A stretch of DNA of 64,000 bases from contig NW_002476370.1 of NCBI RefSeq assembly GCF_000189635.1, positions 682,001 to 746,000 on the forward strand, in the 5' to 3' direction. Shown here one piece after another: positions 13,128 through 57,800 of the stretch; the stretch's first letter is position 1; every line of letters starts with the position of its first letter. The notes beneath the pieces are model-generated. The model saw only the letters and a list, made by a program, of their open reading frames with translations, was not told the origin of the DNA and made no database searches. This stretch comes from Tetrahymena thermophila SB210. Its lineage: Eukaryota; Ciliophora; Oligohymenophorea; Hymenostomatida; Tetrahymenidae. Made by a program: the position numbers and the translations under genes.

Positions 13128-13627
13128 GAAAAATTTTTCTAATAATATTTTGTAATGTATGGATTTAATTTATGTTTCGTTGTTGCAATATCAATCTATT
13201 CTTTCTAATAAGTAAACAACAACTTTTAGTTTTTAATTAATTTTTTTTTTTAGTGTTATTTCTTTATTTAAATATATATCATTTAACTACGAATTAAAAA
13301 ATGTATATTTTGATAAAACTAAATACTCATGACAGCAACTATTTATTTTAGTTTTATTTGCATTTTTAAAGGCAAAAAGTACCTCGATTTTATTTTTTTA
13401 AATTTAATAAGTTGTATGATAAAAAGTATAAATTTGATTTTTAAGCAATTAATGATTGGATTCCATAACAATATTACAATTTGATGTAAAAATCAGTGAA
13501 TATCATTCAATTTTTTTTTATGAACTAAATCTAATTTTAAATGAATAAATAAATTACTTAGTTTATTTTTAAAGTAATTAAAAAATATTAGACAAAGTAT
13601 TGTAAAACAAACTAAGTTATCTTGAAG
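13128..13627. other. Intergenic spacer
   Basis: AT-rich DNA between the second PAS-like gene and the first cysteine-rich gene. I see no gene or clear motif in it. Confidence 0.6.
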
Positions 13628-19842: not shown

Positions 19843-19915
19843 TGATTCCTCCGAGGTTTGAACTCGGGACCTTCAGTGTGTTAGACTGACGTGATAACCA
19901 CTACACTAAGGAATC
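19843..19915 (-). tRNA. tRNA-Val (anticodon AAC)
   Basis: The reverse complement folds as a complete cloverleaf. The 7-bp acceptor stem is GATTCCT/AGGAATC, the D arm contains TAGTGTAGTGGTTATCA, the anticodon stem TCAGT/ACTGA encloses the loop CTAACAC (anticodon AAC), and the T arm contains GTTCAAA. No intron is present. The discriminator base is A and CCA is not encoded. AAC reads GUU (and, as inosine, GUC/GUA) valine codons, the common valine codon class in this AT-rich genome. A and B boxes of the internal Pol III promoter are in place, and a T-run follows the 3' end. Confidence 0.97.
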
Positions 19916-21326: not shown

Positions 21327-23081
21327 TTATGTATAAATCCTATTAACTAAATTTGCTTTTTATGTATTTTACTATTAGTATGAATATTATCTAATAATTA
21401 ATTAATAATTTTTTTTAGTGGATTTAGCAATGTAGTCTATAAATTTAATTTATCTTTTAAGACTACAAAATCTTTTATCTATTTTACATTTTTTGTAAAG
21501 TATTTTCTAATTAATCATCATGCATTTATTACCATATTATTATTACATTTTTAAACGATACTAATGTCAGAATAAGTACTATCTACTATTAATGATCGTT
21601 TCTATTATTTATTTTTACCTTTCTCGCAAATCATTTGAATCTTCCTTCATATTTAATAATTTATTAAAAATATTTATATAAAAAGTAAGGGACTTTTTAT
21701 ATATAACAAACCACTAAGAATTTTATAGAACATTTCATGAATTAGCTAGTTATATTCTAAAAATAAAAACTTTGTACTAGTATATATGTATGTATGAATG
21801 AAATATAATTAATTAAATAAATGAGAAAAAATAAGGTCAATTTATATTATTTTATCTTACTAAAAATTACCAAAAACTATTTTGATATAATAGAAGAAGA
21901 TTAATAGTTCATTTTCTTGAAGTTTCTTTATATTTAAATATAGTCTATTATTCAAAGTATAAAAGAAAAAAAATACTTGATTTTCTTAAAATTAATTTAT
22001 ATAGTCGTTTTTAAATAAAAATAAGATTCTATCTCAAAATATTTAACAAATATTATTTTTTAAATAAGTAAAATAATAATTTAATCAATAAATTTATTAT
22101 TTTCAATAAAAATTATTAATAAATAGCAGATATGCTATTTACTACATAAAAACCTCTTAAATTTCATATATAAATATTTATCATAAGAATAAATTATTTA
22201 AATAATGCTTAAATAAATTATTAAAAATCATATCTAAATTTTATTAATTAATTGTTGATATTTTTTAATATTTTTGATTTTATCAAAAATTAAATAATAT
22301 TATGATTAATATTTGATTAAATGATAATAATATTGAGAATAGAAACCAAATTGATAGAGGGGATAAATATCATTCTTATTATTTTTCTTTTAATTTTTAG
22401 AGTATATATTTTATAATTCATATTAATTTTAATTTCTTTCGCACAATTAATTAGTAATAATTGAATGTTAAAATATTTTATTAATTAAACTTTTTTTTTT
22501 TAAAGCATAAAAACTCCTATTGAAAATTTAAAAATTTACATTATAGATTGTACATTGAAAGCAATTTAAAAAAAAAATATATAAAGTAATTTAAATTAGT
22601 ATTTTTATTAATTTATATAAATAATAAATAATTATGAGCTAAACGAAATTTATCACTTTCTTTCTTTAAATTAAAAATTGAAGCTAACTTACCTCTTTGT
22701 TTGATATTTGTTACTATAATTAAGTAGAATATAATTAACTCTTAAATTTTTAATAAAATCCTTACAAACTAATTTAAGCAAAAAAGTCTTATCCTAATTA
22801 TGTAACCTAATTGCAAAGTAGCTTTATTACTTTTTATTTTTCTTCTTTCATTAAAATAATATTTACATTTTTTTCATTTCACCAAAACTTTTGTTTTCTG
22901 GTATAAATTACAATTAAATTAATAGAGGTATTTATATAATTCTCTTTATACGAGTATTTTGATTACATATGTCACTTTTATATAAATTTTAAATCAAATT
23001 ATATTTTATTACAGATTGAGATAAGACAATCAAAAAAAAAAAAATCAAAATTCAAATAAATTATCTCTTTTAATTTGCTAA
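21327..23081. other. Intergenic region between divergent transporter and cysteine-rich gene
   Basis: About 1.75 kb of AT-rich DNA that should hold both promoters. The parts near 21800-22000 and 22770-23081 are recognisably related to 29650-29870 and 29920-30234, the matching flank of the tandem copy. The middle (about 22010-22770) has no clear counterpart there. No gene seen. Confidence 0.65.
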
Positions 23082-26000
23082 ATGGTATTTGATTTAATTA
23101 TCATTTTTACTTTAGTAATAACTCAAATGATGGCATATAAATAATCTCAATACTAAGTTAATAATAGCGTAATAGAATTTTTAAGGTTAGAGTATTCACT
23201 TTATTTATATTTTAACAATTTAAAAATATTTTAATTTATAAAAGCTTAGATAAAAGATATGATATATACCTTAGATAATTAAAAGAAAGTTGTAATAGTG
23301 ATGAATATTTTGATGGTAAAGTTTGTTAAAAATGTCATCCTACATGCTTAAGTTGCAATGGACCAAACTTTAATTAGTGTCTGGATTGCGATATTTCAAA
23401 ATTTAGGAAAATTTCTGGATCTTAATAATGTAATTGTATTGAGGGATATTATGATAATATGAATAATTGCACCAAATGTGATTAATCTTGTCTAAGTTGC
23501 AGCGGAAGTAGTGATAAAGAATGTTTGACTTGCGATTTGAGTAAATTTAGATACTTAAAAGATGGCTAATGTGTGTGCTAAGATACGTATTATGACAAAG
23601 GAGATAAAAATATTTGCGAAAAGTGCTAAAATCCATGCAAAAATTGTATTTTATAAGGATTAAATATTTTGTGCTTAAGCTGCTTAGATAATTTGAAAAT
23701 TTTGCAATTAGGAAAATGCATTTGCTAAGATAGATTCTACGAAGATAATTAAAAAAATTGTTAGAAATGTATTAATAATTGCTTAATTTGTTAAGATAGT
23801 ACTACTTGTAACAAATGTGATTAAAATAGACAATTTTAAAATAATAAGTGTTAGTGCTTAACTGGATTTTATGATGATGGATCAAATTGTTAAAAATGCG
23901 ATTCTACATGTTAAGAATGTTCAGGACCTTCATCTTTGGAATGTACTTAGTGTGATTCTTCTAAATTCAGAACTTTAAAAAATAATTAATGCGTATGCAA
24001 AGAAGGATATTTTTATATCAACTCATATGATGTTTCTTGTTTGTAATGCTATAATAAATGTGAAACTTGTAAAAGTGGATAAAAAGAAAATAATATTTGC
24101 TTAACTTGCAGACCAACAGACAATAGAATACTTTAAAATAACTCATGTTAATGTAAATAAGGTTATTTTGAATCTTTATCATCATCCAGCACTATATGTG
24201 ACTAATGTTAGCCAAGATGTTTAACATGTTCAAATAAAACAACTTGTGATAGCTGTGATCAAAGCTTATAACTCATACTAAACTCATCAAATCAGTGCGT
24301 ATGTAAAGATGGATACTATGAAGATAATGGTTTATGTAAGTTATGTCATTACTCTTGTGAGAAATGTAATGGACCTGGATCAAACAACTGTACTTCTTGT
24401 ATTTAATCTAAAAATAGGATATTCAAATAAAATTAATGCATTTGCTTGGATTCTTATTATGATGATGGTTCAAATTAGTAATGTTAAAAATGCCATTATT
24501 CTTGCTACACTTGTAATAATAATCAACCTGATTCTTGCAAAAATTGTGGAAACTCTTTAAAAAATTATAGGATATAATAACAATAAATTAATTTACCATC
24601 TTAATCTTAATTTAAATGTATTTGTTAGGATTAATACTATGATGATGGTAGTAATAACATTTGTGATAAATGTCATTATTCCTGCAAAACTTGTTCATAA
24701 TAAAACATTTGCACAAATTGTGATCAGTCTTCTTTTAGGTAATTGTAATAGTTAGAAGCTAATAAAATTTACTGCTTGTGCTAAATTGGATATTTTGAAG
24801 ATTCAAATAAAATTTGTTAATAATGCTCTTAAAACTGTAAGTCTTGTGAAAAATAAAAAGATTAATGCACAGATTGCAGATAAGATATGAACAGAGTTTT
24901 AAATAATAAAACAAAGAAATGCGATTGCAAGGATGGAATGTATGAAGATAAATCTGGAATATGTTAAATCTGTCATTTTTCTTGTGATACTTGTGAAGGA
25001 GGTGGGTCAGTTAATGACTGTAAAACTTGTAACTACTAAAATAACAGAGTACCGTAATAAAAGGATTCAAAAATTACTTGTTAATGCATGTAAACATTTT
25101 ATGATTCTAACAAGGCTATTTGTGATAAATGCCATTATTCATGCTTAACCTGTTCTAAAAATAGTAATGAAAATTCTTGTGATTCTTGTGATTCCTCTTT
25201 ATTTAGGGTACTAAATAGTGGAAAATGCATTTGTAAATCTGGTTATGTAGAAGTGAATCAAACATGTGTTCCTTGTCACAAATCTTGTCAAGAATGTATT
25301 GGAATAACAAACAAAGATTGCACTAAATGTAACATGGATGATTAAAGAGTGTAATCAGTAAAAGATTAAACCTCATTTTAATGCTTTTGTAAGTCCTCTT
25401 ACTATGAAGATTCTAACTTGATTTGTTAAAAATGCCATTTTTCATGTTAAGAATGTATCGGTCCTAAAGCTGAAGACTGTACTTAGTGTTCAAGATAAAA
25501 TTTTAGAATTCCTAGTGAACTTTCATTAAAAAATTTTTTTTGTGTTTGTTAAGAAAAATTTTATAGTGATAATATTAATTCCCTTTGTTTATCATGCCAT
25601 TATTCATGTAAAAACTGTGAGGGCGGTAATAATAAATAAAACTGTACTGAATGCAATTAATCTTTTGGAAGAATTAAGCTTTTACAGCAAGGCTAAAATT
25701 AAGGTCAATGCATTTGTAAAGAAGCGTTTTTCGATAATGGTAGTAATGAATTATGTACTGCTTGCGATATTACATGTAAAAACTGCTTTAATAGCTCCAA
25801 TTAAGGCTGCAATTAATGCTATGATGATAGAAATTTTATGTTAACTTAATAGAAACAGTGTATTTGCAAACCATAACACTTTTATAATTAAATATAAAAT
25901 GCATGCTTAAAATGCCATGAATTTTGCTAAAGCTGTAAGGGGTTGGGTAAAGAAGATTGCTTGTCTTGCTTTCCATATTAGAATAGAGAATTAATTGGTA

Positions 26001-29000
26001 CATAGTGCCTGTGTAAATAATCATTTTTTTAAATAAATCAAAACAGTATTTGCCAAGCTTGCCATTACTCCTGCTTAAATTGTAATGGATATTCACGTAT
26101 TTAGTGCACAGATTGTAGCAGTGATTCATTAAGAATATTTAATAGAATGTATTCCACTTGTGATTGCTAGCAAGGTTACTTTGAAATAAAAAATACTTAA
26201 AAATGTTAGAAATGTGATTAAAATTGTAAAACTTGTGAAATGAAAAGTGATAAATGTATATAATGCAATAATAACATGGTACTGAATAAGGAATCATACA
26301 AATGTGAGTGCTAATCTGGGTACTATTTAGATATTAAAGAGAATTCTTGTTATCCTTGCTCATACGCTTGTAAATAATGCTTAGGACCTTAAAATGGATA
26401 GTGTCTTACTTGTAAAGATAATTATTTAGGCTTATTATCAGGTATATTTAACAACTTATAGACATATTAATGTATTTGTGATCCTAATTGCCCATAAAAT
26501 ATGTAATTAACACCAATTTAAACAATAAATAATATACAATATTAAATTTGTGTATGTATGGAAGGTTTTTATGAAGATATTATTCTTTTAAAATGCTTAA
26601 AATGCCATTTTACTTGCTAGACATGTGTAGGACCATCTGCATAAGATTGTTTGAGCTGTAAAGATGAGGACTTAAATTTTAGGCAAGCTAAACCTGTTCT
26701 TGATTAAAATTTAGTTGAATGTTCTTGCAAAAAAGGTTATTTTGAAATATAAAATTAGTTAAAGTGTTAAAAATGCCATTCAAGCTGTGAAACTTGTTAA
26801 GGTTAATTTAATTATTGCATATCTTGCCCTGAGAATTCATTTATTTCTTAAAACGGAGTTTGCATTTGTAAATAAAATTTTATTTTTATGAGCACTTTGG
26901 GTATTTGCCAGTAATGCCACCATAGTTGTAATTAATGTGATGGATTATAATTAGATGATTGCTTATCATGCTCATCTCTTACTACGAGAGTATTTGTACC
27001 TAAAAACGCTAATATGAAAAATAGTTTAGGAACTTGTAAGTGCTAGTAAGGATATTATGATATTGGTGATTCAGAATGTCAAAAATGTCATTATAGTTGT
27101 GAGACTTGTATTGGTTAAGCTAATTTTTGTATGACTTGTCCTCCTTAGAAATTAAGCCATCGATTTTATTCATCTAACGGTAAGTGTGATTGTTTGCCAA
27201 AGTATTTTGAGGATGTAAACAATAATTGTGTGCCTTGTCCTTATGATTGCTATACTTGCAATCTTGAAAAAAAATGCTTAACTTGCGAAGAAAGTTAAAG
27301 ATAGCTAGATACCAAAACAAATAGGTGCACTTGTTATAAAGGAACATTTGAAGTTTAAGACAGAAGTTGCTAACCTTGCGATTTAAACTGTGAAAGCTGT
27401 AAAGACAATCCTAAAGTTTGTTCAACTTGTCATCCAAATTCCTACTTAAACTACTTCAGTAAATGTGTATGTAACGAAGGCTTTTATGAAGACCCTGAAT
27501 TTTATAAATAATATTCTATGATACCTAGAAAATAAATTTCTATTCTGAATAAAACTGATTTATGCAAAAAATGTTTTACTACTTGCAAAAGTTGTGATAA
27601 TAAACTTACCTGTTTGTCTTGTGATGTAATGAAATTTACAGTACTTAACCCTAAAACTAAAATATGTGAGTGTTTTTATGGTAGATAGCTAATTTTAAAA
27701 GAAGATGGGAGCTTTACATGTGAATTGTTAAATACTTATATAACTTAAAGCAAAGAATAATAAATTAGCACTATCCACGAATTAATAAGCAAAATAATGA
27801 ATTATATTTATATTATTTTTGGATTTCTTTCTTTTATGAGTATTTTCACAGGAAATTTAACCTTACCTAATATTATGCTTTAAAGAGTTTTTGATATTGA
27901 ACTATTATTATACTTAAATGTAATGCCTATAGATAATGTTAAGCAATTCTTATCTACAACAAATAAATCAATCTACATGTACATAGGCTATATCAATCCC
28001 TTTTAAAATATTTTATCAAGTGAAGATGATTATTATATAAGTAATAACTTAAAAGAGTACAAAATTTCTACAAATATTTACAAATAAGGAGGTGGTGCAA
28101 TCATTTTTGTTTTATCATTATACCTCATCCATATTATTTTAAGAAAAACCGTTTTCCATAATAGATATACTCTTATTGATTAATATTATAAAGCTATTCA
28201 TTCAAGAATTTTATTAGCTAGGCTTTATAATCTCTACTATATAAATGTATTTTATTCTCTTGAAGGGATTTTATCCTATTTATTACTATTCTATTCATTC
28301 CTCGGAGCTACAGATAGCCGACTTTTTTTTAAAGTACCATCAATATTTATTATTTGCTTTTTTACTATTAATTATGCTTACAAAATAAAATTTTGCTAAA
28401 ATCTTTTGTAAGATCCATATGAAGTAATTTTTAACAGCAAGAAATTAAAAATATTTTCATTTTAAGTATACTTTGCGAGGTAATTAACAAGTTTGATACT
28501 TTTTTATTTATATTTTTCTTAATAAGACTAATGGTAAATAGTATGGATATTGGTTTATAAGATACTAATTTGCATACCAATATTAGCAATCAAATACAAA
28601 AATAAAAGTATCTTGAAGATAAATATTTTTGTTTAAGAATTAATATATGCATCTATATTAATATTTTATCTACTGCTAAGTGTATAAACAAAAAGAAATA
28701 TATTAAATGAAAACGATAGACAATAGATGTTAAAACTGTGCTTAGTTTTCAAGATTATGATAGTTTCTTTAGTTTTATTAAGCACAATTTTTCTATTTGT
28801 ATATGTTATTTACTAACTAGTTAGACTGTTTATATAAAAATATGATTATAAATCTAATATTTTTATCATTCAACAAAAATTATACAGTTAGAACATCGTG
28901 TTATCTGATAGATAATTTAGATAAAACTAAGAAAATTATATTTTTAAAATTTAAATTTAACCTAAAAATGAAAATAGTAAGAGTGAATTATCCGCAAATT

Positions 29001-29032
29001 TATAAAATAAATTAGAAATAACTAGCTATTGA
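23082..29032 (+). CDS. Cysteine-rich repeat multi-pass membrane protein, tandem copy A
   Basis: ATG at 23082 begins a signal peptide (MVFDLIIIFTLVITQMMA). A 59-base intron, 23186-23244 (GT...AG), restores the frame, which then runs to TGA at 29030; about 1,963 residues. Residues from about 23285 to 27690 form a long array of furin/GF-receptor-like cysteine units (CHYSC.TC, C.C..GYYDD). From 27790 to 28840 there are several membrane segments with the GGGAI motif and HNRYTLIDQYY, related to the gene at 13628, then a short polar tail. It is probably an extracellular cysteine-rich receptor or adhesin anchored by a multi-pass domain. It lacks 588- and 75-base stretches present in copy B, both in whole codons. 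The near-identical copy starts 1.2 kb downstream. Confidence 0.93.
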
Positions 29033-29625: not shown

Positions 29626-30234
29626 AAAAATATTGTACTTTATAGTATGATTGAAATAGAATTAATTAAATAAATGTGAAAAAATAATCTTAATTTATAT
29701 TATTTTATCTTACAAAAAAATTTTCAAAGTTATTTTGATTTTATAGAAGAAGAGGAATTATGATTCATTCTCTTAAAGTTTCTTTATTTTTAATTAATAT
29801 CTATAATTCAAAGTATAATAGAAAAAATACTTAATTTTCTTAGTTGTCAATTTTAAAAAATAAACAAGAAAATTTTAAATAAATTAATTAATTTTATGAG
29901 TTAAACTTATTCTAATCATATAACAAAATTAAAAGTAAGTTTATTACTTTTTATTTTTTTACTTTCATTAAAATAGATTTTACATATTTATATTTCACCA
30001 AAGTCATTTATTTATAAACTAAACTTTTTCTCCTAATTGAATACTATATAATTGAAAGATATTATTGTATCAGTTTAGATATCCGAATAATTTGATTAAA
30101 TATGTTACTTTTATCTTATAGCTTATCAAAATTTTACATTTGCAGTATATTTATTGCTGATCTTTAAATTATTAGAAACAATCCAAAAAAAAAAAAATCA
30201 AAAGTTAAATAAATTAACACATTTAATTTCCTAA
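29626..30234. other. Upstream region of tandem copy B gene
   Basis: Diverged counterpart of the copy A upstream region. The T-rich tract, the poly-A near 30186 and the bases just before ATG (TTTCCTAAATGG against TTTGCTAAATGG) are conserved, which suggests that the core promoter was duplicated too. Confidence 0.65.
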
Positions 30235-33200
30235 ATGGTATTTGATTTAATTATCATTTTTATTTTAGTAATAACTCAAACTTTGGCAAACAAATAATCT
30301 TAATACTAAATTAATAGTAGTGAAATATAATTTTTAAGATTAGAGTATTCAGTTTATTTATATTTTAATCATTTAAAAATATTTTATTTTTTCAAAAGCT
30401 TAGGTAAAAGGTATGATGTATCATTTAGGTAATTATAATAAAATTGTAATAATGGCGAATATTTTGATGGTAAAGTTTGTTAAAAATGTCATCCTACATG
30501 CTTAAGTTGCAATGGAACAAACTTTAATTAGTGTCTGGATTGCGATATTTCAAAATTTAGGAAAATTTCTGGATCTTAATAATGTAATTGTATTGAGGGA
30601 TATTATGATAATATGAATAATTGCACCAAATGTGATTAATCTTGTCTAAGTTGCAGCGGAAGTAGTGATAAAGAATGTTTGACTTGCGATTTGAGTAAAT
30701 TTAGATACTTAAAAGATGGCTAATGTGTGTGCTAAGATACGTATTATGACAAAGGAGATAAAAATATTTGCGAAAAGTGCTAAAATCCATGCAAAAATTG
30801 TATTTTATAAGGATTAAATATTTTGTGCTTAAGCTGCTTAGATAATTTGAAAATTTTGCAATTAGGAAAATGCAATTGCTAAGATAGATTCTACGAAGAT
30901 AATTAAACAAATTGTTAGAAATGTATTAATAATTGCTTAATTTGTTAAGATAGTACTACTTGTAACAAATGTGATTAAAATAGACAATTTTAATATAATA
31001 AGTGTTAGTGCTTAACTGGATTTTATGATGATGGATCAAATTGTTAAAAATGCGATTCTACATGTTAAGAATGTTCAGGACCTTCATCATCCTAATGTAC
31101 TTCATGTGATTCTTCTAAATTCAGGATACTTACTGGTGGTTAATGTTAATGTATGCCATAATATTTAGAAGACTCTCAAAAAAATTGTATCTGCAAAATT
31201 CCATTTTGTCTCAAATGCTAAAACAATAATAATATTTGTGATCTTTGTGAAGATAATAGAATTTACAGTCCAAAAAATAATAGCTGCATTTGTAAAGAGG
31301 GATATTTTGAAAAGGATAAGACATGCTAAATTTGTCATAAATCTTGCAAAACTTGTTCTGGAGGAACAGAACTAGAATGTGATTCATGTGCTTCTTTACG
31401 TTAATAAGTATCTCCTAAAAAATAATGCTTATGCTAGGATGGTTATTATGAAGATACAAATTTTAATTGTTAAAAATGCCACTATTCCTGTTAAAAATGT
31501 ATAAATGATAACAATTCAAACTCATGTACATCATGTTCATTCAGCTCAAATAGGATTTAATAATCACTTCCTGATTAAAAAATATTTAGTTGTGTTTGCT
31601 AAAATAAATTTTTTGAAATTCCAAATAATTAAAATTGCGGATAGTGTAATCCTTAGTGTAATCAATGCTCTGGAGATTAGAATCATTGTATTTAATGCGA
31701 TGAAATTACAAGAACTTTAAAAAATAATTAATGCGTATGCAAAGTAGGATATTTTTATATCAACTCAAATGATGTTTCTTGTTTGTAATGCTATAATAAA
31801 TGTGAAACTTGCAAAAGTGGATAAAAAGAAAATAATATTTGCTTAACTTGCAGACCAACAGACAATAGAATACTTTAAAATAACTCATGTTAATGTAAAT
31901 AAGGTTATTTTGAATCTTTTTCATCATCCAGCACAATATGTGACTAATGTTAGCCAAAGTGCTTATCATGTTCAAATAAAACAACTTGTGATAGCTGTGA
32001 TCAAAGCTTATAACTCATACTAAACTCATCAAATCAGTGCGTATGTAAAGATGGATACTATGAAGATAATGGTTTATGTAAGTTATGTCATTATTCTTGT
32101 GAGAAATGTAATGGACCTGGATCAAACAACTGTACTTCTTGTATTTAATCTAAAAATAGGATATTCAAATAAAATTAATGCATTTGCTTAGATTCTTATT
32201 ATGATGATGGTTCAAATTAGTTATGTTAAAAATGCCATTATTCTTGCTACACTTGTAATAATAATCAACCTGATTCTTGCAAAAATTGTGGAAACTCTTT
32301 AAAAAATTATAGGATATAATAACAATAAATTAATTTACCATCTTAATCTTAATTTAAATGTATTTGTTAGGATTAATACTATGATGATGGTAATAATAAT
32401 ATTTGTGATAAATGTCATTATTCCTGCAAAACTTGTTCATAATAAAACATTTGCACCAATTGTGATCAGTCTTCTTTTAGGTAATTGTAATAGGTAGAAG
32501 CTAATAAAATTTACTGCTTGTGCTAAATTGGATATTTTGAAGATTCAAATAAAATTTGTTAATAATGCTCTTAAAACTGTAAGTCTTGTGAAAAATAAAA
32601 AGATTAATGCACAGATTGCAGATAAGATATGAACAGAGTTTTAAATAATAAAACAAAGAAATGCGATTGCAAGGATGGAATGTATGAAGATAAATCTGGA
32701 ATATGTTAAATCTGTCATTTTTCTTGTGATACTTGTGAAGGAGGTGGGTCAGTTAATGACTGTAAAACTTGTAACTACTAAAATAACAGAGTAGTGTAAT
32801 AAAAGGATTCAAAAATCACTTGTTAATGCATGTAAACATTTTATGAATCTAACAAGGCTCTTTGTGATAAATGCCATTATTCATGCTTAACCTGTTCTAA
32901 AAATAGTAATGAAAATTCTTGTGATTCTTGTGATTCCTCTTTATTTAGAGTACTAAATAGTGGAAAATGCATTTGTAAATCAGGTTATGTAGAAGTTAAT
33001 CATATATGTGTTCCTTGCCACAAATCTTGTCAAGAATGTATTGGAATAACAAACAAAGATTGTACTAAATGTAATATAGATGATTAAAGAGTGTAATCAG
33101 TAAAAGATTAAACCTCATTTTAATGCTTTTGTAAATCCTCTTACTATGAAGATTCTAACTTGGTTTGTTAAAAATGCCATTTTTCATGTTAAGAATGTAT

Positions 33201-36200
33201 CGGTCCTAAAGCTGAAGACTGTACTTAGTGTTCAAGATAAAATTTTAGAATTCCTAGTGAACTTTCATTAAAAAATTTTCTTTGCGTTTGTTAAGAAAAA
33301 TTTTATAGTGATAATATTAATTCACTTTGTTTACCATGCCATTATTCATGCAAAAACTGTGAGGGTGGTAATAATAAATAAAACTGTACTGAATGCAATT
33401 AATCTTTTGGAAGAATTAAGCTTTTACAGTAAGGCTAAAATTAAGGTCAATGCATTTGTAAAGAAGCATTTTTCGAGAATGGTAGTAATGAATTATGTAC
33501 TGCTTGCGATATTACATGTAAAAACTGCTTTAATAGCTCCAATTAAGGCTGCAATTAATGCTATGATGAAAGAAATTTTATGTTAACTTAATAGAAACAG
33601 TGTATTTGCAAACCATAACACTTTTATAATTAAATATAAAATGCATGCTTAAAATGCCATGAATTTTGCTAAAGCTGTAAAGGGTTGGGTAAAGAAGATT
33701 GCTTGTCTTGCTTTCCATATTAGAATAGAGAATTAATTGGTACGTAGTGCCTGTGTAAATAATCATTTTTTTAAATAAATCAAAACAGTATTTGCCAAGC
33801 TTGCCATTATTCCTGCTTAAATTGTAATGGATATTCACGTTTTTAGTGCACAGATTGTAGCAGTGATTCATTAAGAATATTTAATAGAATTTATTCCACT
33901 TGTGATTGCTAGCAAGGTTACTTTGAAATAAAAAATACTTAAAAATGTTAGAAATGTGATTAAAATTGTAAAACTTGTGAAATGAAAAGTGATAAATGTA
34001 TATAATGCAATAATAACATGGTACTGAATAAGGAATCATACAAATGTGAGTGCTAATCTGGGTACTATTTAGATATTAAAACTAATTATTGTTATCCTTG
34101 CTCATACGCTTGTAAATAATGCTTAGGACCTTAAAATGGATAGTGTCTTACTTGTAAAGATAATTATTTAGGTGTTTTATCAGGTATATTTAACAACTAA
34201 TAGACATATTAATGTAATTGTGATCCTAATTTAAATTGCTTAGGTTGTCATCCTTCTTGCGAATACTAATAGTGTGATCCTAATAATCAAAATATTTGTT
34301 TATCTTGCCCATAAAATATGTAATTAACACCTATTTAAACAACAAATAATATGAAATATTAAATTTGTGTATGTATGGAAGGTTTTTATGAAGATATTAT
34401 TCTTTTAAAATGCTTAAAATGCCATTTTACTTGCTAGACATGTGTAGGACCATCTGCATAAGATTGTTTGAGCTGTAAAGATGAGGACTTAAATTTTAGG
34501 CAAGCTAAACCTGTTCTTAATTAAATTCCTCATTTAGTTGAATGTTCTTGCAAAAAAGGTTATTTTGAAATATAAAATTAGTTAAAGTGTTAAAAATGCC
34601 ATTCAAGCTGTGAAACTTGTTAAGGTTAATTTAATTATTGCATATCTTGCCCTGAGAATTCATTTATTTCTTAAAACGGAGTTTGCATTTGTAAATAAAA
34701 TTTTATTTTTATGAGCACTTTGGGTATTTGCCAGTAATGCCATTATAGCTGTAATTAATGTGATGGATTATAATTAGATGATTGCTTATCATGCTCATCT
34801 CTTACTACGAGAGTATTTGTACCTAAAAACGCTAATATGAAAAATAGTTTAGGAACTTGTAAGTGCTAGTAAGGATATTATGATATTGGTGATTCAGAAT
34901 GTCAAAAATGTCATTATAGTTGTGAGACTTGTATTGGTTAAGCTAATTTTTGTATAACTTGTCCTCCTTAGAAATTAAGCCATCGATTTTATTCATCTAA
35001 CGGTAAGTGTGATTGTTTGCCAAAGTATTTTGAGGATGTAAACAATAATTGTGTGCCTTGTCCTTATGATTGCTATACTTGCAATCTTGAAAAAAAATGC
35101 TTAACTTGCGAAGAAAGTTAAAGATAGCTAGATACCAAAACAAATAGGTGCACTTGTTATAAAGGAACATTTGAAGTTTAAGACAGAAGTTGCTAACCTT
35201 GTGATTTAAACTGTGAAAGCTGTAAAGACAATCCTAAAGTTTGTTCAACTTGTCATCCAAATTCCGACTTAAACTACTTCAGTAAATGTGTATGTAACGA
35301 AGGCTTTTATGAAGACCCTGAATTTTATAAATAATATTCTATGATACCTAGAAAATAAATTTCTATTCTGAATAAAACTGATTTATGCAAAAAATGTTTT
35401 ACTACTTGCAAAAGTTGTGATAATAAACTTACCTGTTTGTCTTGTGATGTAATGAAATTTACAGTACTTAACCCTAAAACTAAAATATGTGAGTGTTTTT
35501 ATGGTAGATAACTAATTTTAAATGAGGATGGAAGCTTTACATGTGAATTATTAGATAGCTATATAACTTAAAGCACAGAATAATAAATTAGCACTATCCA
35601 CTAATTAATAAGCAAAATGATGAATTTTATTTATCCTATTTTTGGATTTCTTTCTTTTATGAGTATTTTCACAGGAAATTTAACCTTACCTAATATTATG
35701 CTTTAAAGAGTTTTTGATATTGAACTATTATTATACTTAAATGTAATGCCTATAGATAACGTTAAGCAATTCTTATCTATAACAAATAAATCAATCTACA
35801 TGTACATAGGCTATATCAACCCCTTTTAAAATATTTTATCAAGCGAGGATGATTATTATGTAAGTAATAATTTAAAAGAGTACAAAATTTCTACAAATAT
35901 TTACAAATAAGGAGGTGGTGTAATAATAATAGTATTATCACTGTACCTCATCCATTTTATTTTAAGAAAAACTGTTTTTCATAATAGATATACTCTTATT
36001 GATTAATATTATAAAGCTATTCATTCAAGAATTTTATTAGCTAGGCTCTATAATCTCTACTATATAAATGTATTTTATTCTCTTGAAGGGATTTTATCCT
36101 ATTTATTACTATTCTATTCATTCCTTGGAGCTACAGATAGCCGACTTTTTTTTAAAGTACCATCAATATTTATGATTTGCTTTTTTACTATTAATTATGC

Positions 36201-36891
36201 TTACAAAATAAAATTTTGCTAAAACCTTTTGTAAGATCCATATGAAGTAATTTTTAACTGTAAGAAATTAAAAATATTTTCATTTAAAATATACTTTGCT
36301 AGATAATTAGCAACTTTGATACTTTTTTATTTATACTTTTCTTAATAAGACTAATGGTAAATAGTATGGATATTGGTTTATAAGATACTAATTTGCATAC
36401 CAATATTAGCAATCAAATACAAAAATAAAACTATCATGAAGATAAACATTCTGGTTTAAGAAGCAATCTATATATCTATATTAATATTTAGTCTGCTACT
36501 AAGTGTTTAGACAAAAAGAAATATATTAGATAAAAATGATAGCGAAAATATGCTAAAGCAGTGCTTAATTTTTAAAGTATTAATAGTATCTTTGGTTTTA
36601 TTAAGCTTGGTTTTTCTATTTGCATATATCATTTTTTCATTTATTAGATTTATTATCTAAAAATATGATTATAAATCTAATATTTTAATTATTTAATAAA
36701 AATTATACCGTTAGACCATCAATATATCTGAGAGAGAGTTTAGATAAAAGTAAGAAAATTAAATATTAAAAGTTTAACTTTAGCCTAAAAATGAATTTAA
36801 GATGAGTAAAATATCTAAAAATTTATAAAATAAATTAGAAGTATTTAGCTATTTAAAAGTTAAAATAAATTCATAGTCGAAATTAGATTGA
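30235..36891 (+). CDS. Cysteine-rich repeat multi-pass membrane protein, tandem copy B
   Basis: ATG at 30235, TGA at 36889. Domains are as in copy A: signal peptide, cysteine-unit array (about 30440-35540), then the multi-pass region with GGGVI (35620-36660). Unspliced, the frame gives about 2,218 residues. The region equal to copy A's intron (30339-30398) has AT where copy A has the GT donor, but is now 60 bases long and free of TGA, so it can be read through in frame. A nearby GT at 30345 would also splice in frame (54 bases). It carries two in-frame extra stretches (31125-31712, several cysteine units; and about 34231-34305), and its stop lies 12 codons further than copy A's because that TGA reads TTA here. 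It appears intact. Function as for copy A. Confidence 0.9.
31125..31712 (+). repeat. 588-base block of extra cysteine units present only in copy B
   Basis: The block is exactly 196 codons, and the sequences flanking it in copy B join at 23970/23971 in copy A. The edges share similar repeat sequence, as expected for loss by recombination between neighbouring cysteine units in copy A, or gain in copy B. Confidence 0.88.
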
Positions 36892-38663: not shown

Positions 38664-41600
38664 ATGTCTGATAACAAGAAAGAAAGCGAAGAAGTATAGA
38701 CTACTAATGTAATCTTTATTTTTTAGGTTAAAAAGAAATATTTAGGAGTAGGCTTATTTTACTTTTAGCTTAAGTTGCGAAATTTTTATCTTTAATCAGA
38801 TTAAATTTTACAGCATTTATTGACTAAATGAGTGAGTTTCATTTCACAAAATTAGAGTTAAAAGTGGAGAAGCCATATCTTAATTGTTTTTTAGATCAAA
38901 ATAAATATTTTAAGGCAGTTTATTGTAAAAATTTTAAAAAAATTATTTTTTAAAAAATGAAAGTCTTCAAATAAGAAATCAATCAGATTTTTACAAGAAT
39001 AGTATGAACAAGATGATTAAATTCCATCAGGAAACCTTTAAAAATCAGTGGTAACTTTAAAAAATGAATGAAATAAAAATAAAAAATAATTTTAAAATCC
39101 TAATTGGTGAGCTTAATTTGGTTTTTAAAAATGGATAATTTTTCAGTTGGAAATTCAGTGAAGTATATTCGTTTTTGAAAGCTAAGAGCTCATTCATTCC
39201 TTTCATTTATTTTTTATTTCAGAACTTAGATTTTAGTTAAATTTTAAATAAAGTATAATGAATGAATAAATTTTTATTACTAATAAATCAGAACACAAGC
39301 AGAGCAGTAAGTGACTCAACACGCGAAGGAGAGGAAAGAGAGGAAGATATTGATGATATCGTTGGTGAAAATTAATCAAAATTTAAACATATTAAGAGTA
39401 TTGATGTTATTCTACCAAACTGTGAAGATAAATTGACTGAAACAGTTTCTCCTTCCAAGAAAGTAGAAAAAAGTTTAAATGCTAGCAGTCTACAAAGTGA
39501 AAACTAAGATGATAATCTCTCAGTTCATTTTGGAGGATTAGAAATTTTAGATGATAATGAAGGTGAACTTCCTAAGTTTGAATATGAACCTGATGATGTT
39601 CCCATGAAAAGTATTCTGAAAAACGATTTAAATCGCTCAAGAAATATATCGTTCGATGTTAGGTAATATTAAATCACATTTACTTTATAAAATAAAAAAC
39701 TTTAAATTCTGCTATTTTTTGTATTTTCTTAATATAAAATTTAAATTGTTAAATTCTTAAAATGCATTTTATAATAACGATTGATAAATTCTTTTATATT
39801 TATTTATTTATTTACATTTTATTGTAATCAAAATAATATAGAATGCTAAAAGACATTGAAGGCAAGATAATTAGTCATGATAATTTATCTATGAATCCTG
39901 ATGATTAAATTGATAATGATTTAAGAAATTCGATATTAAAAAACTGTTAGTTTAATGAAGATTCTATTAGTTAAGGTAGATCTTAAGGCTCTGGCATCAT
40001 GAATAAAAGTATAGATTCAAATGAAGATGAAGATGATTATTTCTAGGATGAAAATCAAAACGAAAATAAAATTGAGTTTCGTAATAGATTAGATAGTGAA
40101 GTTAGATTTAAATTAATTCCTACTGTTTAGGAAGCTTCTGAAAAACCAATTGATACTAGCATTGCTAAAAGAAATTCTCTACTTTTCCCAGCTTATTCTA
40201 TTTTAAAGAATAGTCCTCTTGTGCAACCTTCTGAGTTCAAATCACTCAAATAAATTGAAAAGGTGGCCAACCATAGCCATCGTAACAGCACTGATTAAAA
40301 TGCATATAAGATAAATTAAGAAAATGAAAGTGGAGAAGATAGTGAGGATAGTCAAGACAATGAAGAATCAGATGTTCGTTTTGTTGGTGATATTGTCCTT
40401 CAAGATGAAAGTGCCTATAAATTTAAGTATAACCCTGAAGAAAACCCAAAGAAACCTATTATTAAAAGAGGTTCATGCATGACTCATGCAATGACTCCAA
40501 CAGCTAGCGTATCTTCATAGTTTGCATCAATAGCTTTTTCTAATGTTAAGAATGAAGAAAATAAAAGAAAGCGCATGTCTTATGACTTCTTGAATCTTAA
40601 GAATGTAGATGGAAAAGTTATTAAGCACTGGTAGCAAAAAGTAATTGAAGACACAAATCTTACTGAAGATTAAAATAGAGATATTAAGTTTGGAGGGATT
40701 GAAATTCTTGAAACAGATAAGCTAGGGGACTAGGTCAATATTGCTTCTAAATCTATTAAACCCCAAAAACCTATTCTTAAAACTTACAGGGGACGTAGTT
40801 GCTCATTAGACTTCAAAAAGCCTATTAAAAATATAGATGGTGTTTACATTCGTAAAACTCAAAATCAAGAAGGAGATGATGATGAAGAGGGCGAGAAGGT
40901 TGTTCATTTTGGTGAAGTAGAATAAGCAGAAGAAAATGTAGCTAATAGTGGCAATACTTGTGGCAATAATATAGCATAAAATCAGGCTAAATAAATATCA
41001 ATAAATTTAAATTTAATTCGTTAGTATAACTCATAATAAACTGAGGAATAGTAAAAATAGAACGATGAATAAAATAAAAAATCTATCTTGAAAAGATCTT
41101 CAAGTGTGCAAATGAGAAAACCACCTACTTTTAATTCCTCCAATGACAATACTCCAACCACTAAAAAGAAAAGTAATTTCTCTAATCGTAAAATTGAAAT
41201 CAAAGAGAATCTAGGTTTCGATATTCCTACTTCTGAAATCTTCACTGCAAACTGGACTTCAATCCGTAACGACTACATAGAGTCTGCATTAAAATTTTTA
41301 GTGGTAAAGATATTAATTTAATTATGCTTTAATTAATGAAAACAGAGATTATACATAAATTAAACTTCATTGGAATTTTTTAAAATATTTTTTTTGTAAT
41401 TTAATATAATAGAGGATAGATACTAAAAATTTACCTTAAATTTTCTAACATGGAATGCAGCCTCAATTATTCAGCCAAATTATCGAAGTTCTACATGAAA
41501 GGACTGAAAAGTAATATTTTTTGTAAAGATATTACAATTTTAAACATTTATTTAAATTTAAAAGTGATGCTTTTGTCAAATCTTACATAGAAAACCTTTA

Positions 41601-41822
41601 CAAAATTAAGAATTTCTAGTCTCTCCTGTACATAAATAAGTATCAATAAGATAGTAATTAATTATTTTTTAGCAGAGAAGTTATTTTTATAAACATTTAA
41701 AATATTTTTATATAAATATAGTAATCTAAGAAATTCTTGATTCACTTGAATAAAACCATTCTATTGATGAGAATACTTACAATTAGCTATGCTCAATCTA
41801 TATATTAAAGTAAAGTGATTGA
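38664..41822 (+). CDS. Acidic low-complexity protein with repeated SILK and VxF motifs (candidate PP1-docking protein)
   Basis: Six exons are inferred: 38664-38708, 39292-39662, 39842-41303, 41461-41510, 41565-41653 and 41722-41822. All joins keep phase, giving 705 residues and ending at TGA 41820. The first join (583-base intron) is the least certain. No classical domain is seen. The protein repeats a block of roughly VxFGG(I/L)E(I/V)..., then K.(S/P)I(L/I)K followed by Arg/Ser. SILK-type motifs lie at 39610, 39930, 40197 and 41082, with PIIK and PILK variants at 40455 and 40770. VxF-type motifs lie at 39523 (VHF), 40374 (VRF), 40683 (IKF) and 40896 (KVVHF), and RNISF at 39640. In other eukaryotes, SILK and RVxF are short docking motifs for protein phosphatase 1. 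The C-terminus is helical and may be a separate small domain. PP1 binding is inference. Confidence 0.78.
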
Positions 41823-49800: not shown

Positions 49801-52800
49801 TCAATCAATATATTAGATTGCATCATCATTACTATGGTTTGTGTGAAGCTAAATTTATTTTGGTTAGCTCTGTTATTAATGTGATATTGGTAATTAAGTA
49901 TCTAAATTTGGGTACTTTTACTTGTCAGAGGCCTCATAAGTAGTTTAAATTTATTGATTTATTGAAACAGATTCATAAGGTAACTTATTACTAATACCAT
50001 ATTATTTATTGCTGTAGTTTATTTCTTTAGCTTTCTATTGTAAATTTCCTTGATTAAGGTCACTTATTTGGTTTATTTAATTTGTTTACAACTCCCCTAA
50101 TACTTTATGATAAAGAGATTATTGCTACTAAGGCTAATTAACTATTTATATTTATGGATATTATTCAGAGTATTTTACTTATGTTCTTTGGCTCTTTTAG
50201 TGCAAATCATATTCTCCTCTTTGCGTTCTATTTTGTAAATTTTATGTGAATACAGACACAAATTAAACTTTTTCAACGTTTTCCACTCCACTGTATCTTC
50301 TTTGTAAGTTTTCGTTATTTTAATTCGTAGGATGGCTCAAAACAACACGAACTGGAGAGTAGGGAGGTAGAATATTATTTTATGATTAAACTATTTTCTA
50401 TGTATAATTTTATGCGTTTTTTTATCCTTAAGAGGAGTTATAGATTGTAGAGCTTATCACATTCGATATATTAGGAACGAAATTTCTATTCAAAGGACTT
50501 AATGTTTGTCTATCTTTTTATATTACTTGGTTGTTAATATTAGGTTACTACTATGATAATACTAAATTAAATTAGTGACGACTGTTTTAATGATATTGTT
50601 GCTATTAGATTTAGGTAACTCCTTATTATGGAATATTAATTTGAATATTTTTATTTTCTTTAAACAATTCCTACTGCTTAGGAATGGAATTCTCTAAATT
50701 AAAGTTCCTATTTGTAACTTTTATGGCTTCATTCGCGATACTAGCATTTCTACTTCTGCTATTTAGTCTTTGAATTCTATCTTAATTTTCTGCTTCTCTT
50801 AACACATTAATCTAGTTTTCAATTATTGTGTGCTTGTCAAACTTGCTTGGAGAGTTTATATTTTGCATCAAATATCCTTATTATTGACATTTATTACTAT
50901 GATCTGTTGTATTATCAGATTTAAATAATTGTGTTTATTGTTATAAAATTTAGATTTCTTTTGCACTTTACTGCTAATTATTATTTTATTTCACACAATT
51001 ATTTTAACTTTTAATTATTTCTTGATACTAATTATTTTTTTATTATTGTTGTGATTAAATCTCTTGATTTTAAAATGGATTTCTTGTTGGATTTAGGTAT
51101 GAAAAGTTGTTTCCGTCTAATGAGGAATTATTCCAATCAAATGCACTACCAAAATTAGGTATTGCCTATGTGTAGTAATCGCTTTGATTATCAAATTTAT
51201 TTATACTTGGTTAAGCAAGCTATTAAAAATTTCTGTCCACAGGCTAAGATTAATCTTAGATAATATTTTCATTTGTAGAATTAGTATTTTGTAAAAGTTA
51301 AGATGATATTTTAGAATTTGAAGTTATTCCTTTTTTTGAGTCATTTTTATGATAGTAGACTATTCCATATTAGTAATACTCTTAAAGATCTTTTGCTTTT
51401 TCACTCAAATTGTCTTTATTTGAACTATTTACAAAATCCAAAGAATACTGTCTGCCACATTAATTTGAAAATTTTTTTACTTTTGAAGCTTACTCTGGAA
51501 ATTATTATTATTATTATTGTTCTTATTGTTATTATTGCTATTACTATTACTGAGGTGAACAGAATTATTTTTCTTAGAAATTGTTCTTTCTGAATTCCTA
51601 GCTTGAATGTACTTATTAAATATTCTAGCTTTCTACTAAAAAGGGAGTAATTTATAGTTAACTATTTTATACATTTTAAAAATTAGTTCCTCTTGAAAAA
51701 TTAATATGCTATTGACAATCTGGTATCTAAAGCTTAACAGTAGGAGAAAGTGCAGAAGAGCTGGGACTCCTAACAAGGTTATTTACAGGTGATTTAGTTT
51801 AATTAGAGTTCTTATATGCATTACTGATTGGAGGCTTTTATATTATAATATTTTCATTTGCTATTTACTGTAGAAGGTTTAACTAGTTTGAAATATACTA
51901 TTCAGTATTGTCAATCATTTTATCGCTTTATTCTTTAAATTAATTATGAGATTAAAATATGTTTAATCCTTGATTTTATTAATGATTTTTAGATTATTTT
52001 CTTTCTGAATATGCATCTTAGAATATTTTCTTTCTTGCAGGTTTTGGTGTCATTTTATTTTCGAAGTGATTCTAGTCTAGTTTTTTATCTATTTACTATT
52101 ATTATTATTATGAATCTTTGAAAAGTGAATCTTATCTTATTTAAATTTAATGGGCATTTATTTATTATTCTGTATTTTTTTACTGATAGGATATCAAAGA
52201 TATGCCTCTCTACTAAATCTATCCTGATAAACTGTTTGATTTAGTATGACCTGCAACAGCTCTAGTATTTTTTATTTAATTAAACTGATAGTTAAATTCT
52301 GGATCTACCTTCTTTTGATTATTTTAATCAATAGATAAATTTTAGTACTGTTTTTGTGTAAAAGGTATTTATTTTTTAATATTTTAGTAAAATTGTTAAG
52401 ACTTTTGCTAGTTATTCTATTTATTTTCATATACATTATCATCGCTTGGAAGAGACTGTAAGTGTGTATTAGGTTTAGAATTATTGTAAAAACTATTACT
52501 GTTTATGTTGAAAGAGTTTAATTAGGTATTCTTGTTACTAATATCTGGTTAGTTTGCAGTTGTAATTTAGTTTAACTGCTTAATTTATGGTCTACTTATG
52601 CAATTTAATTGGATAAATTAAACTATTTTCTAGAAAAACTAATTAGGGCGAATGGTATTATGATTTCCTTCGAATTCAATTATACATTTATCATCAGACC
52701 TACATGCCTTATAAAGAACTTAAGAGTGATAAGGCAAAATTATATTATCATTAGTACCATAAGCAAACAAAATTGGAATTTAGAGATTTTTAATTTTTTC

Positions 52801-53790
52801 TTCAATTTAAGTATTAAATATATCAACTCCATTCAAAGCCTCCTAAATTTATGACTTCATCAATGAAATAACACCGTCAACTATCAAAGAAGGAATCTTC
52901 GTTTTAGATGATGCAATTTCTAACATGACTTTCTTTAAATCACTGAAAGGACTATCCAAAACAAGTCCTTATATTTTTGATTAATTCTTTTGGGCATAAA
53001 GAATTCCAGTTACTGCACCCATACTTTATAATAAAATTTAATAGTAATTTATTAAGTTTGCAATAATAATAAATTAGAAAGTAACTATTAAAGTTAAAAT
53101 TAAGTTTTGTTAACTAAATTCTTTGTATACTATATTGAGTGCTATGTTTGAAGTTAATTAATACTTAAATAAAAATACCTTCTTCCCCAAATAATAATCT
53201 CACTCTAAGTTAGATTATTTTGAACATATTGAACAATGCTCTCTAAATCTCTGCATTCATTAACCCCCATAGTTACATACTTTCCCTAGCTTTTACCTGA
53301 ACCTGAAAAATCAAAGCAAAAAAGCCCAAAAGTAGGAATAAGATGCTGAAGAGTGCTAACAGCTTCTACTCTAGATCCAGAATTTCCATGCAAATAAATT
53401 ACTATAGGAAGTTTTTTTTCTTTTATCATATTATCAGGAAGGAAGTAGGTGCATTCTAATTATTCCCCTCTATCATTTAGTACCTGCACATCTTTTCTAA
53501 TAACTGCAATTGAATGCAATATTCTAACATTTGAACCTATTTTATAAAATCAAAATAAGCTTTCATATATAATGCCAAATAAATATATCTAAAAAAGTAA
53601 TTTTCTAACTAAATATATGGCAAATTTCTTTATTTAAATTGCATTTATTCTCACTTTTCAGACTTTTTTTGTAATTAATTTGAAATATTGTATTACCCAA
53701 ATCTGATAATGAATACTACTACCTCTATGGTTCAATAATATTTTTCCAAAACTGGGCATACTTATCTGAAATACTTTTGAAAAAATCCAT
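49801..53790 (-). CDS. Alpha/beta hydrolase with very long Gln/Asn-rich C-terminal tail
   Basis: ATG (complement of 53788-53790) opens exon 1. Introns 53537-53696 and 53024-53178 splice in phase, and the frame runs to TGA at 49801-49803, about 1,224 residues. The first about 300 residues form a serine hydrolase: oxyanion-hole motif YLHGNSGS, nucleophile elbow GRSMG (split by intron 2), acid residue in YGTNDN (about 52740) and catalytic His in GNHNT (about 52655). This resembles the ABHD17/ABHD13-like and BEM46-type branch, which includes membrane-associated thioesterases and lipases. The remaining about 900 residues are disordered, rich in Gln, Asn and Ser, with a poly-Gln run coded mainly by TAA repeats (51498-51553). 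The tail has no second domain I can name. The substrate is unknown; depalmitoylation is possible but not shown. Confidence 0.88.
51498..51553 (-). repeat. Poly-Gln run coded by TAA/TAG/CAA triplets
   Basis: On the - strand, in the gene's frame, consecutive TAA, TAG and CAA triplets encode an almost pure Gln run. The same bases in another frame would give poly-Asn or poly-Ile, so the surrounding frame decides the reading. Confidence 0.85.
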
Positions 53791-54828: not shown

Positions 54829-57800
54829 TCAGTAAATTAATTACTTTATTGTCACTCGTTTATCAGTTTTATATTATCCAGAAATAGCTCCTCCAACAGC
54901 TGCTAGTATTTCCTTACTATTAGAACTATTAGGAATATCTGCAATAGATTGCATTACATTTGTTTAAGGATGTATAGGTGGTCCTTTTGGAAGTAATGTC
55001 AGCTTTTATTAAGGTTAGTATTATTGTTAAGATAGCTGATATTATAAATTTCTTTAAGCTTGTATAAGCCATTATCTCCTTTCTTCTTCCATTTAAGCAG
55101 CTGTATTATCAATTCTATTAGTTAAAATATTTTATTTATTTTGAAAACATAAAATTTATTTATTAAATTACAATTAAAATTATAATTTTTGTTAGGGTGG
55201 TTTTGCTTAATTGAGAATTTAAAGCTTTTTAGTTTGAGGTTCTTATACAAATAATACTTATGGCTCTATTTATGGCTTTTTAGCTTAAACTGCTCTAGAG
55301 GAATTATAATTTTAATCTTAAAGAATATTCATGTTTTTTATTTCTAATTGCTCCTTTTCTGAGGTGATATACGCTTAGATCTTTTTGACATTTGGATTAG
55401 ATGGTTTGCCATTTATATTTTCTTCAAATTGGAAAGGTTCTTCTGCTAGCTTCAATTCTTTGACTCCTATTGCTACTCTGTTTTCTTGTTATTAATTAAA
55501 ACAATGTAAAATAATTTAATCAATATTGTAATTTGCTTTACATATTTTATTTTTGAATTTTTGGTGTATATTATATGGAGAATTTTATTTTTTAATCCTA
55601 AAATCATGCATTCTTCCACTAGCTGATCTTGTGATAGCGTTTTCAATAGCTTCATCTTTATTTTATTCTTGGTCTTCGCATTGAATAGTTTCACCTTCTT
55701 CGTTTAATTAAGAAGAGCTTGGACGCTATCCATTTTAACCGGGTATTCCTTTATTAATAGTAGTCTAAGAATTAGGCTTACGAGGAGGTAGTTTAGCTCC
55801 TATTTTTGTATTATAAATTTTTTCTAAATCTTTTGGTTGATTTAGCTTTTTTGGTTAATTTGTTATTTTTTTAGGATCTTCAGTGACCTTTTTTGTATTT
55901 CTTCTAATATCTATTGATAATTATACAAGTATGATAAAAGAAAAATTATTAAATTGAGTATTTACTTGCTCCAGTTTGTTCTTCATAACACTTTAATGCA
56001 TATTACATATACTCAGTAAAATTATCATCTTCATCATCCTTTTTTAATAAAAGTTATACATTGGTATTCAATTCCAAAGTTTTTAATTATTTACTTCCAT
56101 AGGAAAAATTCTTTCAAATCCCCCTAAATGTTTATCTTCATATTCATCTCTTTTTTATTATGCTTTTTTTATTTCTTCTAGCTTTTCTTCAGGTGTGTAC
56201 TTCACTTTTTTACCAGTCAAAACTCTTTTTTACATTATTTCCTTTCTTTAATTTATAATCTCATTTTTTGCTTTACAAGTACAATTCATCAATTTTAATG
56301 AGTCCCTAATTGTGTTCTTTTTGATGTAACTTTGATTAAAAACGCTTATTATTAATCTATATTTTAAATAAAATATTACCTATCAAGTGGAGTATCAGTG
56401 GAAAAGCTTGGCGTGTGATTAACTTCTAAAACCCATGGCTTCAAATGGCTATCCAATATAATATCAAATCCTAATATTTCGAAACACATATTATTCATAA
56501 AATTATCAGGCTAGCAGCTTTTGTAATGATGAGCTAATGTTGGCTAAGCACTAATAATTGTTTTAATTAAAACCCTCTTAATATCTTTCCACAGCTTGTT
56601 AACATCATGACCCTAGTCTTCAAGAAGCTATTTATTAGCAATAAATATATTAATTACAAAATTTATCAAAAAAAAGATTTTAATTTATGATTTAAATTGA
56701 TATTTTAATTATTGAATAAATACAATATGAGGATCTAATAAAAACTTTAAACAAGATCTTAAAATATAAATATGTAAATTGTGTTTTAAAAATATAATAA
56801 TGTTTATTATTAATGAAATACCTGTAAAACAGAAGTGAGAGATCTTTTGTGTCCAACATCCATTTTTTCTTTGTCTTTATTGAATTTGAAATTAGGATTA
56901 TCTTTATTGATAGCATAGTTTGTTAAATGCATACACATATCTTCTATATTATCTCTATTTACTTCTTAATATTTTTCAGTAGCAAAACGAGTTAAACCCT
57001 CGTAATATAAATAAATTCTAAGAGGATCACACCCAGCTAGTAAGACGTATAGTCTGAAATCGAACTTCAAACCATCAATTAAATATGGCTTATTTAAATA
57101 CCTTTATACAACATAATGATCTGAAGGATTTAAGTCATCTAGACTTCGAGTTAGGAAAATACCTCTGCCTTAACAACTAGCTTCAGGTTTAACTATAAAT
57201 ATTTTTTATTAGGATCTGCTCTTTTCAAATTAGTTTTTAAAATCATTGTATTCAGCAGGAAGAAGCCAAGTTTACGGGAAAAATTTATACTAATCAGGAA
57301 ATTACTTACGCATTTTCATAAGATTTCTAGCTAAGTGATTTTTTCTTGCTAAAGAAAACATACCAGGAAAGTGATTGATTTTTTAATATGGCTGCATACG
57401 TCCTAGCTATTCTGGTTAAACAGCATTATCAGTCCAAAAGATATCAAAATCCATAGATTCCATGTCATAGGCTAATTTCCATTTAAATATTTTTTTACCC
57501 ACAAATTTCACAACAGGATATTTTGTATCTAAAAATTGTTATAAAATAAATTTTTATAAGATTAAAAAAATAATAATAAAATTAATTTATAAAAATGTTG
57601 GCATTATATTTTTATTTATTTTTCTACTTTAAATGTATTTGCTTATTTTTTTTACTAAAATAGTCCAGATTTTATATCATAGAAAAATAATTCATTTGAA
57701 AGCAGCTGATTAAATAATTGTTTTAAAATTTTTTCTATTTTCGAAATGCTTTTATAAAAAAGCCTACTCAACCAGCTAGCTTATAAACTTATGCTCAAAT

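Follow-up and report, generated by a model that had tools for sequence, protein, structure and literature searches.

The window analysed here, 64,000 nucleotides of the Tetrahymena thermophila SB210 genome (101 Mb in 445 contigs), has just three frames of at least 100 amino acids when read with translation table 11, whereas table 6 yields frames of up to 2375 amino acids; TAA and TAG are therefore taken to encode glutamine, as in the ciliate code. A forward-strand gene model at 38664-41822 has six exons (38664-38708, 39292-39662, 39842-41303, 41461-41510, 41565-41653, and 41722-41822) in a single open phase throughout, and under code 6 it encodes a protein of 705 amino acids terminated by TGA. 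Its five introns are all of the GT..AG type, with an A+T content of 0.79-0.89. The short exons 1, 4, 5, and 6 are placed by phase and splice signals alone. The model is least secure in its last exons; the 3′ end, with three introns, was built by hand from phase, and automatic enumeration of splicing, which allowed at most two introns there, put other models on top. Every motif named below falls within exons 2 and 3.

Several other genes are recognisable in the window. Two adjacent forward-strand frames (23093-29032 and 29764-36891; 1979 and 2375 amino acids) share 1823 of 1966 aligned residues, which indicates a tandem duplication. By eye, both are rich in cysteine, carry repeated CxxC units, and have a hydrophobic C-terminal part; the first matches no Pfam family at E 0.001. 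A third frame that looks like a relative of these (13626-19418) matches the Pfam family VSP at E 4.7e-9, with no single stretch passing. A tRNA-Val (AAC) gene (19843-19915, reverse strand) was found by both ARAGORN and Rfam. Also on the reverse strand, Pfam identifies an EamA transporter (20382-21566), a serine hydrolase domain with a long Q/N-rich tail (49801-53199), a member of the tubulin-tyrosine ligase family (56666-57676), and eIF3 subunit 7 (zeta) (60397-61473).

The 705-residue protein is acidic (K+R minus D+E = -32) and is predicted, by a simple charge/hydropathy score alone, to be mostly disordered. In each of the ten windows of 80 residues that reach up to residue 620 the score is zero or below (one of them at -0.00), and the window at 601-680 is the sole one above zero (+0.12; residues 681-705 fall outside the scoring). 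The C-terminal part (about residues 598-705; 41217-41822 including introns) is the lone stretch with a score of the folded type. No Pfam family matches the protein at E up to 10, an NCBIfam scan of exon 3 gave no match, and a PDB search gave none. The original prediction from the DNA letters, of a disordered acidic protein encoded between 38664 and 41822, agrees with these results, including the two gene ends. Paralogues were sought in the organism's own genome with 119 residues of exon 2 at an E limit of 0.001 and, at a limit of 10, with exon 3 and with the C-terminal part; the gene itself was the only match. Exon 3 has no match in viral contigs.

Four exact SILK motifs ([GS]IL[KR]) are present, at residues 122 (KSILKN; 39610-39621), 169 (NSILKN; 39930-39941), 258 (YSILKN; 40197-40208), and 553 (KSILKR; 41082-41093), all on the forward strand, as are the other features of the gene. 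At two further places where a SILK is expected the protein has PIIK (residue 344, KPIIKR; 40455-40466) and PILK (residue 449, KPILKT; 40770-40781), giving six SILK-like sites in total. Sites 122, 344, and 449 lie in the repeat units described below as U1, U3, and U4, and sites 258 and 553 in stretches U2 and U5; site 169 is outside the long repeat. In 20,000 composition shuffles the mean number of exact SILK motifs was 0.065, and none reached four. For comparison outside the gene, one SILK occurs in the 11,340 amino acids of ten long stop-to-stop frames in its neighbourhood (unspliced, two of them near-duplicates), equivalent to 0.06 per 705 residues. The Poisson chance of four in one protein is approximately 7e-7, so that over the genome's some 25,000 proteins about 0.02 such proteins are expected, before other motifs that might equally have been noticed are considered. 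The excess of SILK in this protein is thus strong. The serine codons of the four motifs are AGT, TCG, TCT, and TCT, and the leucine codons CTG, TTA, TTA, and TTG. A DNA pattern for KSILK is hardly enriched genome-wide, with 1866 occurrences (906 + 960) versus 1730 (849 + 881) for the reversed pattern; this comparison is uninformative because the pattern also takes phenylalanine at the leucine place and omits AGY serine codons.

Motifs of the form [VI]xF number eight, at residues 93 (VHF, the start of VHFGGLEIL; 39523-39531, unit U1), 134 (RNISF; 39646-39654), 216 (KIEF; 40071-40079), 226 (EVRF; 40101-40109, stretch U2), 317 (DVRF; 40374-40382, unit U3), 369 (IAF; 40530-40538, within an insertion of U3), 420 (RDIKF, the start of IKFGGIEIL; 40683-40691, unit U4), and 493 (KVVHF; 40902-40910, stretch U5). 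The motif at 134 stands eight residues behind SILK 122, and those at 93, 226, 317, 420, and 493 each precede a SILK or SILK-like site. Shuffling gave a mean of 3.2 (20,000 shuffles; P 0.009, uncorrected), and the ten neighbouring frames contain 51 in 11,340 residues, again 3.2 per 705. A fuller RVxF expression of the ELM type fits the motifs at 134, 216, 420, and 493 (four of eight; shuffle mean 1.3, P 0.049). Three of the five block motifs (93, 226, and 317) have no basic residue ahead of them, the preceding letters being DNLS, LDSE, and EESD. The VxF excess is accordingly modest, and the RVxF side of a PP1-docking interpretation is weaker than the SILK side.

The two kinds of motif are spaced with some regularity. 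Five distances from VxF to SILK-like site fall between 25 and 35 residues (93-122, 29; 134-169, 35; 226-258, 32; 317-344, 27; 420-449, 29), an outcome that random placement of the motifs gives with P 0.0008, for a band picked post hoc; the pair 493-553, at 60 residues, lies outside it. Read the other way, from SILK to a later VxF, the gaps run from 8 to 72 residues, so a SILK could be paired with the VxF before it or after it. Published accounts of motif order differ. SILK has been said always to be N-terminal to RVxF, and the contrary order in LAP1B was taken to mean that its SILK is unimportant (PMC3792071). In mouse Rif1, SILK (2128-2131) is ahead of RVSF (2150-2153) and both contribute (PMC5437018); in budding-yeast Rif1, KSVAF (114-118) is ahead of SILR (146-149) (PMC6035837). 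Sreesankar et al. report that both orders occur (PMC3410773), although the orders printed there for the Rif1 proteins of single-celled and multicellular organisms are opposite to the positions given in the other two Rif1 reports (PMC6035837, PMC5437018), and the positions are followed here. A [KR]xxS or [KR]xx[ST] site lies no more than 15 residues after four of the six SILK-like peptides; random positions reach this with P 0.056, which is not significant, and it is a lead only.

The first description of the locus had noted four SILK-type motifs and about five (V/I)xF motifs in a semi-regular block, and had interpreted them as a possible multivalent scaffold for PP1. The motif counts were well judged (four exact SILKs, with PIIK and PILK in addition, and eight VxF motifs, five of which stand ahead of a SILK or SILK-like site), and the semi-regular layout is recovered in the five gaps of 27-35 residues. 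Of the docking interpretation, the SILK half holds up well, the motifs being exact, far above chance (4 against 0.065), in predicted disordered sequence, and found in a genome whose PP1 keeps the residues on the SILK side (see below). The scan that had been proposed against the RVxF consensus was less favourable, with four matches against 1.3 expected and three of the block motifs lacking a basic residue.

Part of the motif block consists of a repeat. Units U1 (residues 83-152; 39493-39881, spanning the intron at 39663-39841), U3 (residues 307-402; 40344-40631, with a 28-residue insertion), and U4 (residues 413-478; 40662-40859) are homologous across about 60 residues. The likeness is clearest for U1 with U3 (z 12.0) and U1 with U4 (z 10.3), none of 500 shuffles being as good for either pair, and lower for U3 with U4 (z 3.6; 1/500). 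U2 shows no significant likeness to U1, U3, U4, or U5 (99, 58, 453, and 37 of 500 shuffles as good), and U5 is significantly like U3 only (z 3.6, 2/500; 27/500 against U1 and 27/500 against U4). The consensus of the three units can be written DVxFGGxEIL - acidic - PxKPILK - NRxRxxSxDF - LKNIDGKxI. Their alignment has 13 invariant columns, of which three are within the motifs (F of VxF, I and the last K of SILK) and ten are outside (G15, L19, D21, P37, K39, S53, D55, K60, G64, and I67). Residues outside both motifs are therefore at least as conserved as those within, so the unit does more than carry SILK and VxF.

The age of the repeat was assessed from codon choice at identical residues on the three-unit alignment, with expectations from the gene's own codon usage. 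The same codon is used at 11 of 23 such residues for U1-U3 (expected 11.4), 13 of 23 for U1-U4 (10.7), and 13 of 19 for U3-U4 (9.5). Separate pairwise alignments give 11/26, 14/22, and 9/16 versus 12.7, 10.1, and 7.3 expected, with U3-U4 out of register. Synonymous places are thus near background while 19 to 23 residues per pair have been kept, which argues that the protein has long been constrained and speaks against recent duplication at the DNA level; the agreement between U3 and U4 in the three-unit alignment is above expectation, and these two may have a later origin. For the most part, similarity between the units has persisted longer in the protein than in the DNA. This test cannot distinguish constraint on the PP1 motifs from constraint on the rest of what the unit conserves.

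The genome encodes at least one orthodox PP1. A PF00149 profile search gave 45 exon-level matches; among those read, which were part of the total, one gene (L063, G000:C405) was recognised by eye and confirmed by alignment, its hand-spliced product matching PP1-gamma at E 1.1e-168. This gene occupies about 1430-3135; the hand splicing gives it four introns, one of them some 600 bases long. In PP1, N86 lies in the SILK pocket, and E54, E56, D166, E167, D242, and E287 lie between the SILK and RVxF pockets (PMC10066265). The Tetrahymena protein keeps all seven of these, on numbering placed by hand on the PP1-gamma alignment. It also keeps nine of the ten residues that we take to form the RVxF pocket, L266 being I.

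We consider it probable, with some reserve, that the 705-residue protein is a PP1 regulatory (targeting) protein with putative binding through its SILK and VxF motifs; this reading is the best available for SILK and less secure for VxF. In the mechanism that we propose, the chain, acidic and disordered over about 600 residues, would display five or six docking places. At each place a SILK or P-I-[LI]-K peptide would enter the SILK pocket of PP1, and a VxF peptide, about 30 residues before the SILK (as in yeast Rif1) or after it, would enter the RVxF pocket. Several sites per chain could hold more than one PP1, or one PP1 tightly through rebinding. A basophilic kinase acting at [KR]xxS near SILK might turn docking off in the way that Aurora B does with KNL1, and the C-terminal part may anchor the protein, which is a guess. 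On sequence grounds the protein is a good candidate for a scaffold of several PP1 molecules, and a multivalent scaffold is a plausible hypothesis; the narrower suggestion that several PP1 are in fact held at once on one chain, as on a PP1-collecting scaffold, is made tentatively. If several were held, the PP1 present locally might be set in steps by phosphorylation, since candidate kinase sites stand beside some of the VxF-SILK places, a suggestion that is itself speculative.

PP1 could instead be bound through one or two sites only, the remainder being idle or serving other partners, which would make the protein a monovalent regulator. SILK 122 with RNISF 134 could be such a site, as the only pair in which SILK comes first, the RVxF pattern is full, and the gap is short (eight residues). 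LAP1B offers a precedent, since only one of its three RVxF motifs bound PP1 and its authors held the SILK to be unimportant (PMC3792071); motifs on a list need not all function. Two points count against a monovalent regulator: U3 and U4 have kept their residues while synonymous places drifted, and three of the exact SILKs (169, 258, and 553) stand apart from the best-matched repeats and so are not mere by-products of that duplication. We regard this alternative as doubtful, if well worth keeping in mind.

The strongest objection to PP1 docking of any kind is that conservation outside SILK and VxF is no weaker than within them, so another partner may read the unit. The 60-residue unit would then be a repeated motif or small domain, and its likeness to SILK and VxF incidental to a longer pattern, VxFGGxEIL...PxK[SP]I[LI]K...[KR]xxSxD...K[DN][IV][DE]G. 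The ten invariant columns outside the PP1 motifs fit this account, as does the change of SILK into PIIK in U3 and PILK in U4. Both of these sites, out of six SILK-like ones, replace S with P, and PIIK also replaces L with I, which counts against PP1 docking. PP1 nevertheless tolerates variants of SILK, such as the LTIK of inhibitor-3 (PMC10066265), and no clear unit surrounds three of the exact SILKs (169, 258, and 553), so that their four letters would need a reason of their own. Another partner seems rather unlikely to us as the explanation.

Comparison with Ki-67 and RepoMan, whose PP1-binding domain has RVSFGG, shows a resemblance to the VxFGG found here, but the PF15276 (PP1_bind) model has no match to the 705-residue protein. 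Budding-yeast Rif1 is close in layout, with a VxF followed by SILR in the same order and at almost the same distance of about 30 residues (PMC6035837). Rif1 has two putative RVxF/SILK pairs (PMC6035837), a partial precedent for motifs in several copies, whereas the Tetrahymena protein has five to six sites and, by Pfam, lacks a Rif1_N/HEAT domain; mutation of the Rif1 motifs loses the interaction with Glc7 (PP1) (PMC5098799; see also PMC3989773). Genome searches with Rif1_N and PP1_bind gave no match, but the controls were equally silent, so these searches have no bearing on absence. Inhibitor-2 likewise uses a SILK-type and an RVxF-type motif (PMC10066265, PMC5437018), but in a single copy, and PF04979 (IPP-2) does not match here. 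LAP1B has three RVxF motifs and one SILK, the SILK C-terminal to the working RVxF (PMC3792071); it differs in being a membrane protein, and a repeat is not described in the parts of that report drawn on here (PMC3792071). Since no Pfam family matches at E up to 10, the protein is, by these tests, not Rif1, Ki-67/RepoMan, or inhibitor-2.

A further reading takes the protein for a known PP1 partner with several motifs that has diverged in ciliates, for instance the kinetochore protein KNL1/Spc105, whose N terminus has SILK and RVSF with PP1 binding lowered by Aurora B (PMC6406801). The 705-residue protein has no match to the MELT-like pattern used ([MILVF][DE][MILV][ST]) and is thus not a plain KNL1, and the C-terminal RWD domain of KNL1 is not among Pfam matches at E up to 10, a search that remote versions could escape; such an origin is very improbable. 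Also highly improbable is chance, by which coding DNA that is AT-rich and encodes much K, I, S, and N would yield a SILK that short duplication multiplied: the KSILK DNA pattern is indeed common in the genome, but the protein shuffles, the ten neighbouring frames, and the differing codons of the SILK copies speak against it.

To our knowledge, the specificity of PP1 comes from its partners, usually with one set of docking peptides each. Many docking sets on one protein, if confirmed, would provide a natural test of avidity and of local phosphatase dosing, and the occurrence of PIIK, PILK, and VxF variants in one chain would offer a natural series for measuring what PP1 accepts. An array of SILK/VxF units is not described in the titles and opening parts of abstracts of the open-access literature searched, and the same searches showed little on PP1 partners in ciliates.

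Other phosphatase-related genes were noted in the genome. Among the PF00149 matches, L007, L008, L009, L011, L017, and L018 were rejected as PP1, being judged by eye to be PP2A/4/6-like (for L007, not by eye alone), and L010 was judged by eye to be another PPP type. A weak inhibitor-2 candidate with KKGILSKK (C309) scores 25.0 bits at a cut-off of 25 and lies on another contig. A weak inhibitor-3 candidate with KIQW scores 31.4 bits (cut-off 27), and a second inhibitor-3 piece, with CCIYHK, is below cut-off at E 0.09. L049 (G000:C188:313373-316406) appears by eye to comprise two adjacent PP2A/4/6-like genes, each broken up among several frames in a way that suggests introns. Two PPP phosphatase frames, L056 (G000:C312) and L057 (G000:C411), have Kelch-like sequence ahead of them, by eye, and altered metal and catalytic signatures (GSINGQ, GNYVGRG, and RGNMED; GNIHGR, GNYVDRG, and RGAHEE); they may be pseudophosphatases and have 47% identity to L010, which looks normal.
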